Positions 54,347-63,504 of a stretch of DNA of 64,000 nucleotides are shown here, piece by piece. Numbering within the stretch: position 1 is the first letter of the stretch; each line of letters starts with the position of its first letter. This stretch comes from Klenkia brasiliensis (lineage in GTDB: Bacteria; Actinomycetota; Actinomycetes; Mycobacteriales; Geodermatophilaceae). A program made the translations under genes and the position numbers. The notes beneath the pieces were generated by a model, which saw only the letters and a list, made by a program, of their open reading frames with translations, was not told the origin of the DNA and made no database searches. The DNA lies in assembly GCF_900100695.1 (NCBI RefSeq), contig NZ_FNCF01000008.1:62001-126000 (forward strand). The letters are read 5' to 3'.

Positions 54347-54384
54347 GACCGGCTGCTGTGAGCTGCGGCACGAGGAGGACGAGG

Positions 54385-54738
54385 GTGCGGATCGGGGAAC
54401 TGGCCCGGCGGACCGGGGTGAGCACCAGGTCCCTGCGCTGGTACGGCGAGCTGGACCTGCTGCGGGAGCACCGGACCGGCGGCGGGCACCGCGAGTACGA
54501 CGCGGACGCGGTGGCCCGCGTGGAGCTGATCCAGCTGCTGTTCGCCGCCGGGGTCCCGGCCCGGCACGTGGCCGAGCTGCTGCCCTGCATCTACTCGGGG
54601 ACGACGACACCGGCCATGGTCGCGCGCCTGGAGGAGGAGCGGTCCTCCCTCGCCGAGCGGGCCCGCTCGCTGGCCGAGACCCTCGGGCGGCTGGACCAGG
54701 TCCTGGTCGAGGCACGGGCCCGCGTGGTCGTCGCCTGA
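54385..54738 (+). CDS. MerR family transcriptional regulator
   Basis: A 117-aa regulator with the standard N-terminal HTH (RIGELARRTGVSTRSLRWYGELDLLREHRTGGGHREYDADA) and a coiled-coil dimer helix, with no large effector domain. It is divergent from the SDR gene and most probably activates it. GTG 54385 follows GAGGAGGA. Confidence 0.92.
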   Translation: MRIGELARRTGVSTRSLRWYGELDLLREHRTGGGHREYDADAVARVELIQLLFAAGVPARHVAELLPCIYSGTTTPAMVARLEEERSSLAERARSLAETLGRLDQVLVEARARVVVA

Positions 54739-54742
54739 CCGG

Positions 54743-55828
54743 TCACCGCAGGGTGCGGTAGAGGGCCAGGTGCGCGGCGGCAGCGGTGTCCCAGTCGTGC
54801 GCGGCGGCCACCGTGCGCCCCGCCGCCACCCGCGCCGGGTCCGCGCCGGCCGCGGCGGACACGACCGCGTCGGCGAACGCGGGCGGCGTGGCCGCGAAGT
54901 CCGCCACCCCCTCGAACACCTCGCGCAGCACGGGCAGGTCGCGGGTCACCAGCGGGACCCCGGCGGCCAGCGCCTCCATGGCCGCCAGCCCGAAGCCCTC
55001 CTTGGTCGAGGGGAAGGCGAACACCTCGGCGGCGGCGACCAGCGCGGGCAGCCGGTCGTGGTCGACCGGGCCCAGGACGACGGGGGCCACGCCGAGCGCG
55101 CGGGCGCGGGCGTCGACCTCGGCGCGGTAGTCGCGGTAGTCGAACAGGGTCTCGCCCCCGGCCACGACCAGGCCGAGGTCCGGGCGCCGGTCGCGCACCA
55201 GCGCCATCGCCTCGACCAGGTCCAGCGTGCCCTTGCGCGGCTCGATGCCGCCCACGGCCAGCACGTACCGGCCCAGCCCGGCCCGCCACCGGGCCCGCTC
55301 CGCCTCGCCGTCCGGCCCGGCCGCGGCGGCGAAGCGGGCGCCGTCCACCCCGTTGGGGATGACGGTGGCGGTCCGGCCCCACCCGTCCCGGACCTCGGCG
55401 GCGACCGCGGCGGAGACGCAGACCAGGGTGTGCGGGGTGACCACGGCGCGCTCGTGGCAGGCGGCCAGCTCCGGGGTGGTGAACCGGTCGAGGTGGTGCA
55501 CGGTGCGCACGCAGTCGGGCACGGCGTTGGCCGAGATGCAGTCCTGGGCGTGCACCACGTCGTAGTCCTCGTCGCCGAACGCCGCCCCGAGCACCGCGAT
55601 GGAGCGCAGGATCCGGGCGCCGACGTCCTCCCCGGGCACGTCCGGGAACGGGACGAGCCGCAGCCCGACCGCGGGGTCGACCGGCCGGAAGAACGCCGCG
55701 TCGCCACCGCGGCCCAGCGACCAGACGTGCACCTGGTGCCCGGCCCGGGCCATCGCCTCGGCCAGCGCGAGGGTGTGCACGACCCCGCCGCAGGGCTTGG
55801 TCGAGTAGGTCAGCAGCGCGATCCTCAC
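54743..55828 (-). CDS. Glycosyltransferase, MSMEG_0565 family
   Basis: A 361-aa GT4-type glycosyltransferase. The N-terminus LLTYSTKPCGGVVHTLALAEAMARAGHQVHVWSLGRGGDAAF is the hallmark of the MSMEG_0565 family; the C-terminal block is PSTKEGFGLAAMEALAAGVPLV. It is the last gene of the Nit1C-type operon, with GTG 55828 overlapping the upstream stop. The acceptor is unknown, and its role with the nitrilase cluster has not been explained. Confidence 0.93.
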   Translation of the reverse strand: MRIALLTYSTKPCGGVVHTLALAEAMARAGHQVHVWSLGRGGDAAFFRPVDPAVGLRLVPFPDVPGEDVGARILRSIAVLGAAFGDEDYDVVHAQDCISANAVPDCVRTVHHLDRFTTPELAACHERAVVTPHTLVCVSAAVAAEVRDGWGRTATVIPNGVDGARFAAAAGPDGEAERARWRAGLGRYVLAVGGIEPRKGTLDLVEAMALVRDRRPDLGLVVAGGETLFDYRDYRAEVDARARALGVAPVVLGPVDHDRLPALVAAAEVFAFPSTKEGFGLAAMEALAAGVPLVTRDLPVLREVFEGVADFAATPPAFADAVVSAAAGADPARVAAGRTVAAAHDWDTAAAAHLALYRTLR

Positions 55829-56640
55829 GAGTAGGCCTCCGGACGGAGTTCGCGCAGGTGCGACAGGACCAGCCGGGCGCGGGCGACCTCGCCGGCCACG
55901 TCGAGCTCGGCGACCGCCAGGCCGGCCTTGGCCCAGGTGCGGGCCAGCACGTCGCCGCCGGGGCCGACGACCTTGGACTGGCCCAGGAACCGCAGCCGGC
56001 CCATCGTCCCGGTCTGGTTCGCCGACACCACGACCACCTGGTTCTCCGCCGCGCGGGCGCAGTCGTAGAGGTCGAACAGGCGGGACTGCCGGTCCTGCAG
56101 CAGCCGCGGTGCGCGGTTGGTCAGCGAGGCCGGCCAGGCCGAGAGGCAGGCCAGCAGCTGGGCGCCGTCGCGGGCCAGGGTGCGGCCGGCCTCGGGGAAG
56201 GTCTTGTCGTAGTCCACGAGCATGCCGAGCCGGCCGACCGGGGTGTCGAAGGCGGCGAACGCGTCGCCGGCGGCGTAGGCCGCGAGCTCCCCGGCGGGCT
56301 GGTGCACCTTGCGGTGCCGGCCCAGGACGCCGTCCCCGGTGAGGCACACGGCGCTGTTGAAGAACTCCCCGCCCGCCGCCTCCCGGTAGGCCAGGCAGAC
56401 CACCGCGGGCCCGGCCGCGGCGGCCAGCCGGTCGAAGACGGCGTCGTCGGGGGCCAGCGCCGGCGGCAGCCCGGTCTCCCCCACCGCGCCGAACCCACCG
56501 AGGTAGCCCCCGAGCGTGGCGTCGGGGAAGACCAGCAGGTCCACCCCGCGCGCCCGGGCGTCGGCGGTGATGGCCTCCACCTTGGCCGCGCAGGTGTCGA
56601 CGTCGCGTCCGAAGTGCGCCGCCACGGCGGCGAGCCTCAC
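55825..56640 (-). CDS. Nitrilase-fold protein with altered catalytic residues
   Basis: A 271-aa carbon-nitrogen hydrolase homologue, clearly paralogous to the nitrilase at 57962-58813 (shared GVLGRHRKVHQP, YDKTFPEAGRTLA, VSANQTGTMGRLRFLGQSKVVGPGGDVL). The Glu of the triad is Asp40 (VFPDATLGGYL), Lys111 is kept (RHRKVHQP), and the Cys position is Asp143 (GMLVDYDKTFPE, codon GAC). A later Cys exists in LLACLSAWPAS but is not in the nucleophile position. It is therefore probably not a nitrilase in the usual sense. GTG 56640 overlaps the flavoprotein stop. Confidence 0.9.
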   Translation of the reverse strand: MRLAAVAAHFGRDVDTCAAKVEAITADARARGVDLLVFPDATLGGYLGGFGAVGETGLPPALAPDDAVFDRLAAAAGPAVVCLAYREAAGGEFFNSAVCLTGDGVLGRHRKVHQPAGELAAYAAGDAFAAFDTPVGRLGMLVDYDKTFPEAGRTLARDGAQLLACLSAWPASLTNRAPRLLQDRQSRLFDLYDCARAAENQVVVVSANQTGTMGRLRFLGQSKVVGPGGDVLARTWAKAGLAVAELDVAGEVARARLVLSHLRELRPEAYS

Positions 56641-57965
56641 GCGACCCGGGACGCCGAGGACGCGGCGGCCACGGCCAGCGCGCTGCCCAGGCCGGTGCGG
56701 GTGCCGGCGGCGGTGAGGTCGGTGATCCGGTCGGCGACGAACTCGGCGTCCCGGGCGATGCCCGAGAACCGGCCCGACCCCCAGGTGTGCAACCACGGCA
56801 GGCCGAGGACGAACAGCCCGGGGGCGGCCGTGACGCCGCGGACGTGGGTGGGGTAGCCGGCGCCGTCGAAGACCGGCACCTTCACCCAGGACCAGTCGGC
56901 GCGGAACCCGATCGCCCAGACGACGCTGCCGATCGCGGCGGCGTCCAGGGCGGACGGGTCCTCCGCGGGCGCCCAGACCGGCACGTAGCGGGGCTCGACG
57001 GGTGCGTCGATGCCGTGCGCGGCGATGTGCCGGTCGATGAGGTCCTTCGCGCTGTCGTCGACGGCGTCGGCCCGGTCCAGGTGCGCGGTCAGGTCCGGGG
57101 CGAACCGCAGGACGCCGTCGCGCACCCCGGTGAGCGTGCCGTAGAGCTGCATGCCCTGGGTGGCGAAGGTGCGCAGGTCGATGTCGCGGCCGCCGTCCCG
57201 GCCGGTGACGTAGTGGTTGGTGCCGACCCGGGCGGCCTCGCCGTCCCGGTGCTGCTCGACCGGCATGTCGTAGTGGCCCAGGTCGTGCAGCCAGGCCACC
57301 ACGTCCCGGCCGCGGTAGCGCCGGGCGATCCGCGGCGCGCTGCCCACCGCCAGGTGCACGCGCCGGCCCGCGAGGTGCAGGTCCTCCGCGATCTGCGCGC
57401 CCGACTGGCCGGTCCCCACCACCAGCACGTCGCCCTCGGGCAGCTGGCCGGGGTTGCGGTACTGCTGGGAGTGCAGCTGGGCGATCCGCTCGGGCAGGGC
57501 GGTGGCGTAGGGCGGGACGACGGGCAGGTGGTAGCCGCCGACGGCGAGCACCACCTGGTCGGCGTGCACCTCCCCCGCGCTGGTGGCCAGGGTGTAGCCG
57601 CCCTCGGCGGCCGGGGACAGCCGGGTGACCGCGACCCCCTCGTGCACCGGCGGGTCGAAGGAGGCGGCGTAGGAGCGGACGTAGTCGACGATCTCGTCGC
57701 GCAGCATGAAGCCGTCGGGGTCGTCGCCGCGGTAGGGCCAGCCGGGCAGCTGGCACTGCCAGTTCGGGGTGACCAGGCAGAAGGTGTCCCAGCGGGCGTC
57801 GACCCACTCGTGGGCGACGGTCGCCCGCTCGAGCACCACGTGCTCGACGCCGCGCTGCACCAGGTGCCAGGAGATCGACAGCCCGGCCTGGCCGCCGCCG
57901 ACGACGGCGACCGGCACGTGCTGCGGGAGGGCGGTGCGGGCAGGTGCGGTCTCGGTGAGCGTCAC
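56637..57965 (-). CDS. Flavin-dependent oxidoreductase, MSMEG_0569 family
   Basis: A 442-aa flavoprotein monooxygenase-like enzyme. FAD motif VPVAVVGGGQAGLSISWHL (GxGxxG type) is at 17-35, LVTPNWQCQLPGWPYRGDDPDGF is a family signature, and the NADPH motif DVLVVGTGQSGAQIAEDL lies at about 175-195. It belongs to the Nit1C cluster (NitH equivalent). It lies between the two nitrilase-fold genes, overlapping both by 4 nt. Confidence 0.94.
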   Translation of the reverse strand: MTLTETAPARTALPQHVPVAVVGGGQAGLSISWHLVQRGVEHVVLERATVAHEWVDARWDTFCLVTPNWQCQLPGWPYRGDDPDGFMLRDEIVDYVRSYAASFDPPVHEGVAVTRLSPAAEGGYTLATSAGEVHADQVVLAVGGYHLPVVPPYATALPERIAQLHSQQYRNPGQLPEGDVLVVGTGQSGAQIAEDLHLAGRRVHLAVGSAPRIARRYRGRDVVAWLHDLGHYDMPVEQHRDGEAARVGTNHYVTGRDGGRDIDLRTFATQGMQLYGTLTGVRDGVLRFAPDLTAHLDRADAVDDSAKDLIDRHIAAHGIDAPVEPRYVPVWAPAEDPSALDAAAIGSVVWAIGFRADWSWVKVPVFDGAGYPTHVRGVTAAPGLFVLGLPWLHTWGSGRFSGIARDAEFVADRITDLTAAGTRTGLGSALAVAAASSASRVA

Positions 57966-58813
57966 GCGACCGCCCCGACCCCGTAGGTCTCGGGACGGCG
58001 GTCGCGCAGGTGCCCCATCGCCCGGCGGGCCCCCGCGAGCGCCTCCCCCACGTCGATGCTGGCGACCGCGGTGCCGGGTGCGGTGCCGGTGGTGGCGAGC
58101 ACGTCGCCGCCGGGCCCGACGACCTTGGCGCTGCAGACGAACCGCAGCGAGCCGAAGGTCCCCGACTGGTTGGCCGACACCCAGACGATCTGGTTCTCCA
58201 GCGCCCGGGCCTGGTCGAACAGGTCGAACCGGCGGGTCCAGCGGTCCTCGGCCAGGTCGGCGGCGGCACCGGTGCGCGAGCCCGGCCAGGCCGACATGCA
58301 GACCACGACCTCGGCGCCGTCGACGGCCAGCGTGCGGGCCGCCTCGGGGAAGGCCTTGTCGTAGCAGATCATCATGCCGATCCGGCCGACCGGCGTCTCG
58401 AAGGCGGCGAAGCCGTCGCCCGCGGCGTAGACGTTGGACTCCCCGAGCGGCTGGTGCACCTTGCGGTGCACGCCGAGCACCCCGTCGCCGGTGACCGCGA
58501 CCGCGGTGTTGTACCGGTCGGTGCCGTCGGACTCGCAGAACCCGGCCGTGACCACCATGTCCCCGGCGACGGCGGCCAGCCGGGCGACCTCGGGGCCGTC
58601 GACGTCCAGGGCGGGTGGCAGTGCGTGCTCGGGCAGCACCTCGGCGACGCCGTGGTCCCCCAGGGAGGCCAGGTAGCCGCCGAGGGTGGCCTCCGGCAGG
58701 GCCAGCAGCTGCACGCCGCGGGCCCGCGCGTCGGCGACGAGGCCCTCGATCCGGGCGAAGGCGGCGTCGAGGTCACGGCCGAACGGGGCCGCGACGGCGG
58801 CGAAGGTGGTCAC
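57962..58813 (-). CDS. Nitrilase (Nit1C-type, sll0784/MSMEG_0566 family)
   Basis: A 283-aa nitrilase with the complete Glu-Lys-Cys triad: Glu41 (LALPEATLGGYL), Lys118 (VHRKVHQP) and Cys150 (GMMICYDKAFPEA). Members hydrolyse nitriles; in the Nit1C clusters of cyanide-using bacteria the nitrilase converts cyanide to formate and ammonia, as far as I recall from the literature on Pseudomonas fluorescens NCIMB 11764. GTG 58813 overlaps the fusion gene stop. Confidence 0.93.
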   Translation of the reverse strand: MTTFAAVAAPFGRDLDAAFARIEGLVADARARGVQLLALPEATLGGYLASLGDHGVAEVLPEHALPPALDVDGPEVARLAAVAGDMVVTAGFCESDGTDRYNTAVAVTGDGVLGVHRKVHQPLGESNVYAAGDGFAAFETPVGRIGMMICYDKAFPEAARTLAVDGAEVVVCMSAWPGSRTGAAADLAEDRWTRRFDLFDQARALENQIVWVSANQSGTFGSLRFVCSAKVVGPGGDVLATTGTAPGTAVASIDVGEALAGARRAMGHLRDRRPETYGVGAVA

Positions 58814-60261
58814 GGGGACTCCTCGGGTGGGCGCGGTGCACCGGTTCTGGATGCGCCGAGGCCGGTCACCGGACCGGCGAGGGCGGGGGTGGTCGAGCCG
58901 TCGGGCCAGCGCAGCAGCACGCCGGACCCGGGGACCAGCTCGCCGCAGGTGCCGGTGGTCGCCGGGCCCGCGGGGGCGACGCCGCGGTCGGCGGCGTCGG
59001 TGGTCAGGAAGGCCGAGCCGGGGAAGCAGGTGAACCAGTCGCCCACGGTCGCGGCACCCGGGCGGGGGACGGCGGCGACGTCGAGCACCGCACCGCAGCC
59101 GCTGGCCTCGGCGAGCATCCCCAGCGTGCCGACCAGGCCGGCCATGGAGACGTCCTTGGCGGCCGCGGGGGCGGTGCGCGCGACCACCGAGCCCAGCTGC
59201 TGCAGCTGCGCGGTGGTCCGGCCGGTGGTGGAGTCCCACTGGCGGCCGGTGGCACCGGCCCGCCAGCCCCCGCCCAGGTCGGCGGTGAGCCGGACCTGGT
59301 GTCCGGGGCGCCCGCCCGAGGCCGGGACGGGTCGGTCGGTGCGGCCCAGCGCGGTGACGGAGAGCGCGGCGGGGACGCCGAGCTGGGTGTGCCCGCCGAG
59401 CACCGGCACGCCCCAGGCGGCCGACCCGGCACGCAGACCGCCGACGACGCGCGCGGCGAAGGAGGCGTCGCGGGCGCCGACGGAGTCCAGCAGGCCGAGC
59501 GGGACCGCGCCCATCGCCGACAGGTCGTTGACGTTGACCAGCACGCCGCACCAGCCGGCCCACTCCGGGTCGCGCTCGACCATCGAGGGCAGGATCGCGT
59601 CGCAGGCGGCCACCACGTCGGTACCGGGCACGGGAGCGCCGTCGTCGCCGACGAACCCGGGTCCGCCCAGTCCCCCGTCCGCGGAGGAGAACCCGGCGAG
59701 CAGGCCACCGAGGGGTGACTTGGTGGCGCGCGCGAGGGCCGCCAGCCGGCCGATGGGCCAGGTCATCGCGGTGTGCGGGCGGCCGGCGATCGCCGTCGGC
59801 GCCACGACCTGCCAGCCCAGCCGGGTGAACAGGCCGGCGTAGCGGTCCTGCACGGTGGCGTCGAACCGCAGCGCGCCGGCCTGCTCGGCGCGGGCGCAGG
59901 CGGCGGCCACCAGGGCGGGGCCGATCCCGGGTGCCGACCCGGGTGCGGCGACCAGCCGGGACCCGGTCCACCAGCCCACGTCGGGCCCGCCGGGGTCGGC
60001 GGGGGCGAGCCGGACGCCGCCGAGCACCGTGCCGTCGGACCCGCGGGCCACCAGGACGACGGCGCGCGGGTCGGCGTCGGTGTCGTCGAGGTCGGTGCCG
60101 GCGAACAGGCCCTGCTCCTCGACGAACGCCCGCCGGCGCAGCTCCCGGTGGGCGGCCACCCCGGCGGCGTCGGCCTCCTCCAGCTGCCAGCCCGGGCGGG
60201 CGACGGGCAGCCGGTGGTCGACCAGCAGCACGTTGTGCTCCCAGGCCCCCTGCGCGGTCAT
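58810..60261 (-). CDS. GNAT N-acetyltransferase / AIR-synthase-like fusion (MSMEG_0567 type)
   Basis: A 483-aa two-domain protein. The N-terminal GNAT domain (about 1-160) has VAAHRELRRRAFVEEQGLF and ARAEQAGALRFDATVQDRY. The C-terminal AIR-synthase (PurM-like) domain (about 165-470) has FVGDDGAPVPGTDVVAACDAI, LVNVNDLSAMGAVPLGLL and AKDVSMAGLVGTLGMLAEA. Cyanobacteria encode the two as separate genes (sll0786, sll0787). The PurM fold suggests ATP-dependent activation. ATG 60261 overlaps the radical SAM stop. Confidence 0.93.
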   Translation of the reverse strand: MTAQGAWEHNVLLVDHRLPVARPGWQLEEADAAGVAAHRELRRRAFVEEQGLFAGTDLDDTDADPRAVVLVARGSDGTVLGGVRLAPADPGGPDVGWWTGSRLVAAPGSAPGIGPALVAAACARAEQAGALRFDATVQDRYAGLFTRLGWQVVAPTAIAGRPHTAMTWPIGRLAALARATKSPLGGLLAGFSSADGGLGGPGFVGDDGAPVPGTDVVAACDAILPSMVERDPEWAGWCGVLVNVNDLSAMGAVPLGLLDSVGARDASFAARVVGGLRAGSAAWGVPVLGGHTQLGVPAALSVTALGRTDRPVPASGGRPGHQVRLTADLGGGWRAGATGRQWDSTTGRTTAQLQQLGSVVARTAPAAAKDVSMAGLVGTLGMLAEASGCGAVLDVAAVPRPGAATVGDWFTCFPGSAFLTTDAADRGVAPAGPATTGTCGELVPGSGVLLRWPDGSTTPALAGPVTGLGASRTGAPRPPEESP

Positions 60262-61343
60262 CCGCCGGCCGCCTGCAGGGCGCTGCAGGCACCGCACGCC
60301 GCGCAGCCGGCGCCCTGGTCGGCGCCGCGCATGCCCAGCGCCCGCAGGCCCGCGGCCACCCGGGTGGTCACGTCGGCCAGCACGGCGGGGTCGGGCGCGC
60401 CCACCCCGTCGGCCATGGCCAGCGTCCCCGCCAACGGCCGGTACGGGACGACGAAGGGGTAGACGCCGCGCCGGGCCAGGTCGAGCGCGCCGGCGACGAG
60501 CTCGTCGGGGTCCTCCCCCAGACCGACCAGCAGGTAGGTGGAGACCCGGTTGCGGCCGAAGACCCGCACGGCCTCGGCCCAGGCGGCGTCGTACTGGCTC
60601 ATCGGCACGCTGGCCTTGCCGGGCATCCACCGGGCACGCACGGCGTCGTCCAGCGACTCGACGTGGATGCCGATCGCGGTGGCCCCGGCGTCCTTGAGCT
60701 CACCGATGGCCGCGAGGTCCTCGGGCGCCGGCGGCTCGCACTGCACCTGGACCGGCAGCCCGGGCACGGCGGCGGTGACCGCGCGGACGCAGCGGGCCAG
60801 GTGCCGGGCGCCGCGGTCACGGCCGTTGGTGGTGCCGGTGGTCATCACCACCTGCCGCACCCCGTCGAGCCGGACGGCGGCCTCGGCCACCTCGGCCAGC
60901 TGCGCCGGGGTCTTCACCGCGGTGGTGGCACCGGCGGCGAGGCTGGCCTCGATGGCGCAGAACCGGCAGCGGTCGGCCTCGTCGTAGCGGATGCAGGTCT
61001 GCACCACGGTGGTGGCCAGCACGTCCTTGCCGTGCAGGCGGGCCAGCTTCTCGTAGGGCACGCCGTCGGCGGTGGTCAGGTCGTAGAAGCGGGGCCGCTC
61101 GACCGCCTCGGCGTCGAACCCGAGGTCGGCGCCGTCGAGCAGCAGCCGGCCCCCGCTGATCGAGTACGGGCTGTCGGGGTTGAGCGGGAGGGCGACGCCC
61201 GTGCCGTCCAGCAGCACGTGGCCGTCGTCGCTGGGGCCCGCCCCGGCCCGTCGCCGGACCGGGGCGTCGACCCGGACGCCGAGCAGCGCCAGGTCGACGC
61301 GGTGTCCCACGCGGTCGCCGGGCCGCATCGGCGTCGAGGTCAT
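60258..61343 (-). CDS. Radical SAM protein, MSMEG_0568 family
   Basis: A 361-aa enzyme. The iron-sulfur motif is CIRYDEADRCRFC: Cys117, Cys126, Cys129, a CX8CX2C spacing in place of the usual CX3CX2C, as in this family. A C-terminal CAACGAC (Cys347, 350, 353) may hold a second cluster. Strand VVMTTGTTNG and the SAM-barrel elements are present. It is expected to do radical chemistry with the nitrilase product, but the reaction is not established. ATG 61343. Confidence 0.92.
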   Translation of the reverse strand: MTSTPMRPGDRVGHRVDLALLGVRVDAPVRRRAGAGPSDDGHVLLDGTGVALPLNPDSPYSISGGRLLLDGADLGFDAEAVERPRFYDLTTADGVPYEKLARLHGKDVLATTVVQTCIRYDEADRCRFCAIEASLAAGATTAVKTPAQLAEVAEAAVRLDGVRQVVMTTGTTNGRDRGARHLARCVRAVTAAVPGLPVQVQCEPPAPEDLAAIGELKDAGATAIGIHVESLDDAVRARWMPGKASVPMSQYDAAWAEAVRVFGRNRVSTYLLVGLGEDPDELVAGALDLARRGVYPFVVPYRPLAGTLAMADGVGAPDPAVLADVTTRVAAGLRALGMRGADQGAGCAACGACSALQAAGG

Positions 61344-61353
61344 GGCCGCGCGC

Positions 61354-61887
61354 TCAGAGGTTGTAGGTGGAGTTGATGATGGCGCCCTTGCGGGCGTAGT
61401 GGATGAGGGCGTCCTGGACGTCCAGCGGGTGGCAGGGGATGCAGCCGGCGATCAGGTCCTCCTCGCGCAGGCCGTGCAGGCTGAGCCCGAAGCGGCAGAC
61501 GTAAACCGTGCCGCCCTCCTCGATGAACTTCTCGATCTGGGCGTTGATGTTGTGCTCGCCCGGGAACGCGGAGTCGCCGGTGGTCGGGAAGCCGCGGGTG
61601 GCCATCGCGTTCATCGCGGCCGGGCCGTAGAAGTACAGGACCGACTCATAGCCCTTGCGCAGCGCGCGCAGCGCCTGCAGGCAGGCCACGAAGCTGACCG
61701 AGGACTCGTGCGCGATGCCGTGCACCAGGGTCAGGTAGCTCTCGCCCTCGCCGGCCTGGTAGTCCGGGAAGATCTTGGTCGAGCCGTACAGGTTGCTGCC
61801 CTTGGGCAGCGAGGGGTGCGGGATCTCGGCCAGGCTGGCCTCGGCGTTGGCCTTGATCTCCTCGGGCGTGGCGAGCGGCGTGGTCAC
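61354..61887 (-). CDS. Nitrogen-starvation response protein, MSMEG_0572/Sll0783 family (DsrE-like)
   Basis: A 177-aa protein of DsrE/DsrF-like fold: [52 protein letters not shown] and [21 protein letters not shown] with conserved Cys. Sll0783 is induced by nitrogen starvation in Synechocystis. It is the upstream conserved member of Nit1C clusters. Starts at GTG/ATG 61887; 10 nt separate it from the radical SAM gene. Confidence 0.93.
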
Positions 61888-61912
61888 AGGGGTGCCTCCA
61901 TCGTGATCGGTG

Positions 61913-62755
61913 TCAGGTCAGCTGGTGGAGCTGCTCGAAGTTGCGGCGGAAGACCAGGTCGGCGAGCTCGCCGTCCCCGGTGGCCGCCGCGAGGCGGGCG
62001 TGCTCGCCCGCGAAGTCGCCCCAGGGCTGGTCGGAGGCGAAGAGCACCCGGTCGTGGCCGATGCCGTGCCGCTCGATCTCGGCGGCGAACCAGCGCGGGG
62101 CGAAGCCGATGGCCCAGCTGGTGTCGGTGTAGACCCGTTTGCCGGCGGCGACCCAGGCGAAGAACCTCTGCCCGATGAGCTTGATGTGGCCGCTCATCCC
62201 GCCGCCCATGTGCACGAGGTGGACGGCGACGTCGTCGGCGTAGTCCTCGACCAGGCCCGCGACCTCGTCGATGTCGCTCGCCGCGCCGGGGCTGGTGTGC
62301 ACGTGGACCACGAGCCCGTGCTCCCGGGCGGCGCCGAAGATGGCGTCCAGCTGCGGCCGGCAGGCCTCGTCGGTCACCCGTCCGCCGAGCAGGAAGGAGA
62401 GCTTGAGCGCGCTGACCCCTCGCTCACCGGCGAGGGCGAGGGCCTTCTCGGTGGCGACGGCGTCCTGCGGCCGGGGGCTGGTCCACAGCCCGGCGCGGAT
62501 CCGCTCGTCGGTCTGCGCGGCCTCCACCACCAGCTCGTTGAGCGCGAAGGAGGCGGTCGGGTCGGGTACCCCGTAGTTGGGGATGACCAGGGCGCACTCG
62601 GTGCCCTCGCGGTCCAGGTCGGCCCGCAGCTCCGCGATCGTGGCCCGCGCGGTGGTGTCGGGGTTGACCGGCGGGCCGCCGTAGAAGGGGAAGGCGGGCA
62701 GGACGCCGAGGTGGCGGTGCGCGTCGTGCACCCGCCGGCGCCGCCCCGTGGTCAT
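61913..62755 (-). CDS. Amidohydrolase family (amidohydrolase 2) protein
   Basis: A 280-aa metal-dependent TIM-barrel hydrolase. HDAHRH near residue 10-15 is the metal HxH, HVHTSPGAASD and HLVHMGGGMSGH carry later ligands, and FASDQPWGDFAGEH has the conserved Asp. It is the first gene of the operon, 25 nt before the nitrogen-starvation gene. Its substrate is unknown; an aldehyde- or amide-handling role is a guess. ATG 62755. Confidence 0.88.
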   Translation of the reverse strand: MTTGRRRRVHDAHRHLGVLPAFPFYGGPPVNPDTTARATIAELRADLDREGTECALVIPNYGVPDPTASFALNELVVEAAQTDERIRAGLWTSPRPQDAVATEKALALAGERGVSALKLSFLLGGRVTDEACRPQLDAIFGAAREHGLVVHVHTSPGAASDIDEVAGLVEDYADDVAVHLVHMGGGMSGHIKLIGQRFFAWVAAGKRVYTDTSWAIGFAPRWFAAEIERHGIGHDRVLFASDQPWGDFAGEHARLAAATGDGELADLVFRRNFEQLHQLT

Positions 62756-62792
62756 GTCCAGAACGGTGGTCCCCGGGTGTGTCCCCGTGGTG

Positions 62793-62823
62793 ACGTCCGG
62801 AACGAGATGTCGTTACGTCCGGA
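62793..62823. repeat. Direct repeats ACGTCCGGA, 22 bp apart
   Basis: Two exact 9-bp copies at 62793-62801 and 62815-62823, two helical turns apart, 38-68 bp upstream of the amidohydrolase start. A regulator or sigma-factor site for the Nit1C-type operon is possible. Confidence 0.4.
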
Positions 62824-62892: not shown

Positions 62893-63504
62893 TCAGCGCG
62901 GCGCGGGGGTGTCCAGGGCGTGCAGGGCCTGCTCGAGGGCGGCCTCCAGCGGCCACGGGTCGTGCAGGGGCTGGCTCAGCACGAGCCCGCCCTGGATGGC
63001 CGACATGATCGACGCCGCGACCCGGTCGGGGTCCACGTGCCCGCCCAGCCGCCCGGCGTCCTGCATCCGGCGCACGCCGGCCGCCAGCAGCGCCCCCCAG
63101 TCCCGGAAGGCCTGCGCGACGACGGCGGCCAGCTCGGGGTTGCGGGCGGCGGCCTCCGACGCCAGCGAGCCGATCGGGCACGCCCACCGCCCCTGCCCGA
63201 TGTAGTAGTCGACGAGCGCCTGGCGCCAGGCCTCCCAGGACTCGCGGGTGGACAGGTCGTGCACCCACGGCTCCTGCGCGGCCATCAGCTGGGCCCCCTC
63301 CCACTCGGCCACGGCGCGCACCAGCTCGTCCTTGCCGCCCGGGAAGTAGTGGAACAGCTGCGACTTGCTGGTCAGGGTCGCGGCGCGGACGTCGTCCAGC
63401 GTGGTGCCACCGATGCCGGCCGCCAGGATCTGCCGACCGGTCTCCTCCACGATGCGCTGCCGGGTCCGTCGTCCCCGCTCGGTCAGCTCGGCCACGCGGT
63501 CCAC
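62893..63504 (-). CDS. TetR family transcriptional regulator (LmrA/YxaF type)
   Basis: A 203-aa repressor. HTH TLDDVRAATLTSKSQLFHYFPGGKDELV, then the C-terminal WACPIGSLASEAAARNPEL block of the LmrA/YxaF-like group. GTG 63504 is chosen; GTG 63495 is an alternative. It is divergent from an SDR gene with two matching operators in the gap, and probably represses it. It ends 137 nt from the Nit1C-type operon. Confidence 0.93.
   Translation of the reverse strand: MDRVAELTERGRRTRQRIVEETGRQILAAGIGGTTLDDVRAATLTSKSQLFHYFPGGKDELVRAVAEWEGAQLMAAQEPWVHDLSTRESWEAWRQALVDYYIGQGRWACPIGSLASEAAARNPELAAVVAQAFRDWGALLAAGVRRMQDAGRLGGHVDPDRVAASIMSAIQGGLVLSQPLHDPWPLEAALEQALHALDTPAPR

Follow-up and report, generated by a model that had tools for sequence, protein, structure and literature searches.

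A probable gpr-type nitrogen-starvation operon with an altered nitrilase twin in Klenkia brasiliensis

The soil bacterium Klenkia brasiliensis (Actinomycetota, Geodermatophilaceae) possesses an eight-gene operon at positions 54743-62755 of the DNA analysed here, a stretch of 64,000 nucleotides (the window; assembly GCF_900100695.1, contig NZ_FNCF01000008.1, positions 62,001 to 126,000). With moderate confidence we regard this operon as the Klenkia copy of the gpr-type nitrogen-starvation cluster of actinomycetes, and not as a cyanide-assimilating Nit1C cluster. Besides a carbon-nitrogen (CN) hydrolase with an intact catalytic triad, nit1, the operon encodes a second nitrilase-fold protein, nit2, with an invariant Asp-Lys-Asp at the corresponding sites; this protein is the new element of the present analysis.

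Gene content and relation to the gpr cluster

A sequence-only reading of this DNA had proposed an eight-gene operon tightly coupled by five 4-nt overlaps, and both points hold. All genes lie on the minus strand, the overlaps join the last six of them, and the remaining intergenic gaps measure 25 nt (genes 1-2) and 10 nt (genes 2-3). The operon is headed by an amidohydrolase (Amidohydro_2, 280 amino acids; 61913-62755; PF04909, 3.7e-17), followed by a NitB-like protein of the MSMEG_0572/Sll0783 family (61354-61887; TIGR04044, 240.9 bits, cut-off 109.85) and a NitD-like radical SAM protein of the MSMEG_0568 family (60258-61343; TIGR04043, 500 bits, cut-off 303.7). The fourth gene (MSMEG_0567 family, 58810-60261) combines a GNAT acyltransferase with an AIR-synthase-like domain, i.e. 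NitE and NitF as one protein (TIGR04045, 79.6 bits, and TIGR04050, 479.6 bits, both above cut-off). Next are nit1 (57962-58813; PF00795, 3.8e-39), a NitH-like flavin-dependent oxidoreductase of the MSMEG_0569 family (56637-57965; TIGR04046, 655 bits, cut-off 498.35), nit2 (55825-56640; PF00795, 1.4e-30) and a glycosyltransferase of the MSMEG_0565 family (54743-55828; TIGR04047, 453.6 bits, cut-off 259.85). Third-position GC content is 0.95-0.99 across the eight genes, and the GC content of the window is 73-78%. The earlier family assignments stand for five genes, the products of which pass curated NCBIfam cut-offs for families of the MSMEG_0565-0572 set, and fall for the two nitrilase-fold proteins, neither of which belongs to the Nit6803 family.

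In Mycobacterium smegmatis the counterpart has been published as gpr, MSMEG_0565-0572 (PMC6039565). GlnR is reported to bind upstream of MSMEG_0572, and the operon to be strongly GlnR-dependent (PMC3662644, PMC4222082); MSMEG_0571 and MSMEG_0566 are likewise elevated in nitrogen-limited continuous culture (PMC4617892). According to the published account of the gpr deletion, the mutant is sensitive to peroxide, has a lower NADPH/NADP ratio and forms impaired biofilms, planktonic growth is unaffected, and attempts at single-gene complementation failed (PMC6039565). Klenkia probably shares seven of the eight gpr gene families, with those of MSMEG_0572, 0569, 0568, 0567 and 0565 together in its one operon, and likewise has a GlnR-like site upstream. 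The gene order of gpr is not that of the Klenkia operon. Within a single family of the same order, five of the six loci (L124, L126, L156, L165 and L167; not L166) follow the arrangement MSMEG_0572 to MSMEG_0565, three of the five having the 0570 gene; in all five, nit2 lies between the GNAT-AIR gene and the glycosyltransferase gene. Judged by gene order in these related loci only, MSMEG_0571 would be the counterpart of nit1, and MSMEG_0566, given the position of nit2, is probably its orthologue and should therefore be an Asp protein. MSMEG_0566 has been called an aliphatic amidase that could aid nitrogen assimilation (PMC6039565).

The cluster of Synechocystis is described as containing a subfamily-1 nitrilase (PMC1199592), and a sll0783 mutant is reported to show no rise of NADPH/NADP on nitrogen starvation (PMC3901256). 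The gpr and Synechocystis clusters thus differ in their CN hydrolase and agree in the NADPH effect, so that the redox phenotype is shared by two versions of the cluster.

Relation to Nit1C clusters

The operon had been taken to be of Nit1C type. Nit1C (NitBCDEFGH) is a cluster defined around a subfamily-1 nitrilase (PMC1199592), and cyanide assimilation has been linked to this nitrilase, NitC (PMC11049912). This defining enzyme (Nit6803) is absent from both operon and genome: the Nit6803 model scores the two CN hydrolases of the operon at 50.7 and 29.8 bits with a cut-off of 502.6, and a genome-wide search for a Nit6803-family protein gave no match over the cut-off. Membership in Nit1C is rejected because NitC is missing; by its gene content, the operon is a relative of Nit1C. 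It shares with Nit1C the relatives of NitB/MSMEG_0572, the radical SAM protein NitD, the GNAT protein NitE and the flavoprotein NitH, all over their cut-offs, as well as the AIR-like NitF. It differs in the lack of NitC and of an adjacent small NitG/MSMEG_0570 protein, in the fusion of GNAT and AIR domains and in possessing two other CN hydrolases and an amidohydrolase. A glycosyltransferase occurs in some Nit1C clusters too.

Annotated Nit1C-type loci on plasmids of Synechococcus, Agrobacterium, Sagittula and Acetobacter all (4/4) carry a nitrilase gene directly before the radical SAM gene, and in three of the four this nitrilase is named Nit6803. An open reading frame (ORF) best matched by Nit6803 is present in only 4 of 203 loci, precisely those picked as Nit1C examples, and in none of the other 199. 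The radical SAM protein matches 515 plasmid records at 1e-20, 373 of them from Klebsiella; many annotate an adjoining Nit6803 nitrilase, which indicates that Klebsiella plasmids often carry a classical Nit1C cluster.

The altered nitrilase nit2

The two nitrilase-fold proteins of Klenkia are 60% identical. They share the fold of the nitrilase superfamily, in which the closest solved relative is PH0642 (1j31) and the closest named family N-carbamoylputrescine amidase; with a curated AguB cut-off of 410 bits, both score far below it (nit1 109.9, nit2 75.1). nit1 shares the Glu-Lys-Cys of the superfamily (Glu41-Lys118-Cys150), whereas nit2, annotated as amidase or carbon-nitrogen hydrolase, possesses Asp40-Lys111-Asp143. 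Four further CN hydrolases in the Klenkia genome keep Glu-Lys-Cys.

Triads were counted in all 203 loci and scored per matched stretch, the label nit1 or nit2 following the better phmmer score; other locus tallies used the whole-protein score, so that, where a protein matched in several stretches, the first might be taken. Glu-Lys-Cys is kept in 115 of 121 distinct nit1 homologues. Two of the six exceptions are fragments (L029, L082) and four are copies outside the full operon (L172-L175). The triads of these four are altered (Gln for Lys, Gly or Ser for Cys) and the copies appear degenerate; a weak radical SAM match lies near the one in L173. In nit2, Asp stands in place of Cys and Lys is kept in all 152 rows, and 148 have Asp at the Glu site (the others 2 Gly, 1 His and 1 Tyr). 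Among distinct sequences, Asp occupies the Cys site in 120/120 and the full Asp-Lys-Asp is present in 117/120. Since the peptide patterns of the first locus scan included DYDKTFPE, which itself contains the nit2 Asp, loci found otherwise were tallied separately: Asp replaces Cys in all 52 distinct sequences. With 120 distinct homologues, a quirk of a single genome is ruled out.

At a threshold of 97%, nit1 and nit2 each conserve a residue of their own in nine alignment columns, two of which are the catalytic Glu and Cys, and have the same conserved residue in 57 (nit1 of L029, L082 and L172-L175 and nit2 of L029 and L188 excluded). In a tree of 53 rows, built without outgroups as those first tried were too distant, a single branch parts nit1 from nit2, with support of 100/98 and in 200/200 bootstrap trees. 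These sequences are most simply read as the outcome of a single ancient duplication; nit2 would then have lost hydrolase chemistry and been retained by selection. In comparison with five near genomes, dN/dS is 0.11-0.25 for nit2 and 0.11-0.15 for nit1; values against L042, from another genus, lie outside these ranges (nit2 0.32, nit1 0.33). The radical SAM rows of L037 and L038, being misaligned, were excluded from this comparison. Judged by these ratios and the conserved sites, nit2 is under purifying selection with Asp replacing catalytic Cys and Glu. Lacking the catalytic Cys, it is probably not another hydrolase. In the open-licence literature on nitrilase-superfamily pseudoenzymes and on the gene names of the cluster, no report of the Asp substitution was found.

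Promoter element

The link to nitrogen starvation drawn in the sequence-only reading is supported by the published work on M. smegmatis and by a conserved promoter element of 38 bp with a GlnR-like site in its 3' part (62779-62816, minus strand), located 24-61 nt upstream of the first ATG. The element has the consensus GnAACnnnnnnnTGTTCCGGAnGAAACCnnnCGGAAAC and is common to many loci, whichever gene leads the operon. With a matrix of 51 distinct sites from 91 loci outside the Geodermatophilaceae group, the sites being picked by likeness to a seed, the Klenkia copy scores 31.7 bits at 62816-62779 and is the best in the window (runner-up 7.1). With an earlier matrix that included some coding sites (e.g. 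L099, L110), the element was detected in 16/16 near-group loci, 48-61 nt upstream of the amidohydrolase start, at 14.8-30.3 bits; shuffled upstream regions reached a maximum of 14.1 bits with that matrix.

The published GlnR site of M. smegmatis is Gn2AC-n6-GnAAC (PMC3662644), and the 3' part of the element fits it; in Klenkia this part reads GTCAC-n6-GACAC. The strict site GNNAC-n6-GAAAC occurs in 24 of 107 upstream regions versus a mean of 1.2 (maximum 4) after doublet shuffling, the gene starts behind these regions being extrapolated and at least two of them (L091, L102) misplaced. From this motif we infer that the operon is controlled by GlnR.

Distribution in relatives

Among named loci, the closest come from Geodermatophilaceae, Klenkia and Modestobacter included. 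A search of 298 genomes of the order with nit2 gave matches at <=1e-40 in 51, and 45 of these have two; in two of the matching genomes (G036, G045), the stretch examined shows a degenerate nit1-like copy only. The families MSMEG_0572, radical SAM, GNAT, AIR, nit1, nit2, flavoprotein and glycosyltransferase are all present in 101 of 148 loci, and in 91 together with the amidohydrolase. These counts are not a frequency among bacteria, because most of the loci were found through nit2. The amidohydrolase and the second nitrilase-fold protein, earlier seen as additions of this version, are no such thing: both are usual in actinomycete relatives, the whole set being present in the 91 loci. The glycosyltransferase gene closely follows nit2 in 115/118 loci.

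The radical SAM family is present over its cut-off in 22 of 396 genomes of the phylum. All 27 places of at least 225 bits outside the Klenkia genome were examined; five possess nit1, four of these together with nit2. Eleven (L130-L140) contain core parts (MSMEG_0572, radical SAM, GNAT and AIR), with the amidohydrolase in eight, and no nitrilase was found in these stretches, some of which end at contig edges. Among the ORFs tried near L132, the only known families besides the core parts are an aminotransferase and a sugar epimerase. L129 stops after the radical SAM gene, and ten places (L141-L150) show little else.

Further features of the operon and its flanks

The MSMEG_0572 family protein has a weak DsrE match (PF02635, at the cut-off). 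The closest sequences to the AIR-like domain in the PDB are ThiL (3.5e-9) and then HypE (6e-5), and the model for stand-alone AIR proteins (TIGR04049) scores the fused domain below its cut-off (166 vs 321). PDB sequence searches with the MSMEG_0572 protein, the amidohydrolase and the radical SAM protein gave no matches. The metal-site motifs DxHxH, HxGG and SDxP of the amidohydrolase co-occur in 97 of the 104 homologues scored. The radical SAM cluster motif C-x8-C-x2-C is present in 112 of 132 sequences, and 120 of the 132 possess an extra C-x2-C-x2-C near the C-terminus, which may hold a second iron-sulphur cluster.

Shortly ahead of the operon, and like it on the minus strand, lies a TetR-family regulator gene (62893-63495). 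It is rejected as an operon member: a homologue was detected in 2/80 named loci (strong in L036, weak in L048). At the other end, an ORF that by eye resembles a MerR-like regulator (54358-54738, plus strand) is convergent with the glycosyltransferase gene, the two ends being 4 nt apart.

Discussion

As a gpr-type cluster, the Klenkia operon would be turned on by GlnR when nitrogen is short. The radical SAM, flavin, acyltransferase, ThiL/HypE-like and glycosyltransferase proteins would then make or modify a small metabolite, and nit1, perhaps also the metal-type amidohydrolase, would cut an intermediate at a C-N bond. For its part, nit2 would have ceased to hydrolyse and would bind a ligand of similar kind, serving nit1 or the adjoining glycosyltransferase as partner or regulator; it could be a partner, a sensor or the seat of new chemistry. 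The outcome, carried over from the relatives, would be a higher NADPH/NADP ratio in nitrogen-starved cells.

Several observations weigh against this assignment. An amidohydrolase heads the operon, and gpr has none. The MSMEG_0570 family gene is missing from the operon; its homologue (L197, 111.6 bits) lies on another contig (C3, 569873-570130) after an ORF that by eye resembles an amino-acid permease, and no 38-bp element was found in the upstream region of this homologue. The strict GlnR site is missing from 83 of the 107 upstream regions, the Klenkia copy deviates from the strict form, and the Klenkia amt promoter has GlnR-like half-sites without the full element; for these reasons another regulator may own part of the element, the TTCCGG core being a candidate site for it. 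Furthermore, the dN/dS of nit2 exceeds that of nit1 in three of the five comparisons, the stretch examined in L128, a relative from the phylum, shows nit1 and no nit2, and the redox role suggested for Klenkia borrows its phenotype from distant organisms.

Two other functions have to be weighed. In a general nitrogen salvage, nit1 and the amidohydrolase would free ammonia from amides or ureido compounds of the cell, the other genes would supply the substrate and the redox effects would be indirect. Such a function would suit the GlnR control and the co-induction with other C-N hydrolases reported for M. smegmatis (PMC3662644, PMC4617892), the resemblance of nit1 to amidases and the presence of two hydrolases in the Klenkia operon. 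However, it leaves the radical SAM protein, the glycosyltransferase and the flavoprotein unexplained, the places L130-L140 show core parts with no nitrilase found, and the gpr mutant is described as free of a planktonic growth defect (PMC6039565); we consider salvage rather unlikely. Scavenging of nitrogen from cyanide or nitriles, with nit1 substituting for NitC, draws on the radical SAM, GNAT, AIR, flavoprotein and MSMEG_0572 genes common to the operon and Nit1C clusters, which are reported to be essential for growth of Pseudomonas on cyanide (PMC11049912). NitC is nevertheless absent from operon and genome, the best score of nit1 is to N-carbamoylputrescine amidase, itself below cut-off, and not to Nit6803, and the published phenotype of the actinomycete cluster is one of redox. 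We therefore regard a cyanide function as unlikely in this operon.

Other alternatives concern the nitrilase pair itself. That nit2 is a decaying duplicate without function would agree with the loss of the catalytic Cys and Glu and with the dN/dS values above those of nit1, but every one of 120 distinct homologues has Asp at the Cys site, while copies outside the full operon show Gly (L175) or Ser (L174) there; moreover, dN/dS remains at 0.11-0.25 and the split from nit1 is older than the families sampled, which makes decay very improbable. A fusion of nit1 and the flavoprotein into one selenoprotein by UGA read-through, as suggested for MSMEG_0571 on the basis of a predicted SECIS element (PMC6039565), could appeal to the TGA stop of Klenkia nit1. 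It is rejected on stop codons and gene adjacency, and its chance of being correct is negligible: the stop codon is TAG or TAA in 8 of 118 distinct nit1 genes, the next in-frame stop sometimes follows within 0-4 codons, and in 69 of 116 loci nit2 directly adjoins nit1, so that no flavoprotein lies on that side of nit1. Covalent cross-links can arise where a Lys and an Asp lie next to a further acid. In a bolder and rather doubtful reading, the Asp-Lys-Asp of nit2 would be a new working centre, whether as an Asp nucleophile, as a site for a metal or ligand, or through a covalent bond between Lys and Asp, and would be required for a starvation metabolite common to gpr and Nit1C; both would really serve redox balance, with growth on cyanide as an offshoot of the version that bears NitC.

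The literature on Nit1C and cyanide and that on gpr or Sll0783 and NADPH concern the same core genes, and no described product of this shared core was found in the literature. The C-N hydrolase is the part that varies between versions of the cluster while the core stays constant; this speaks against cyanide hydrolysis as the core function. If the match by gene order is true, MSMEG_0566, the published candidate for nitrogen release, needs a new assignment.

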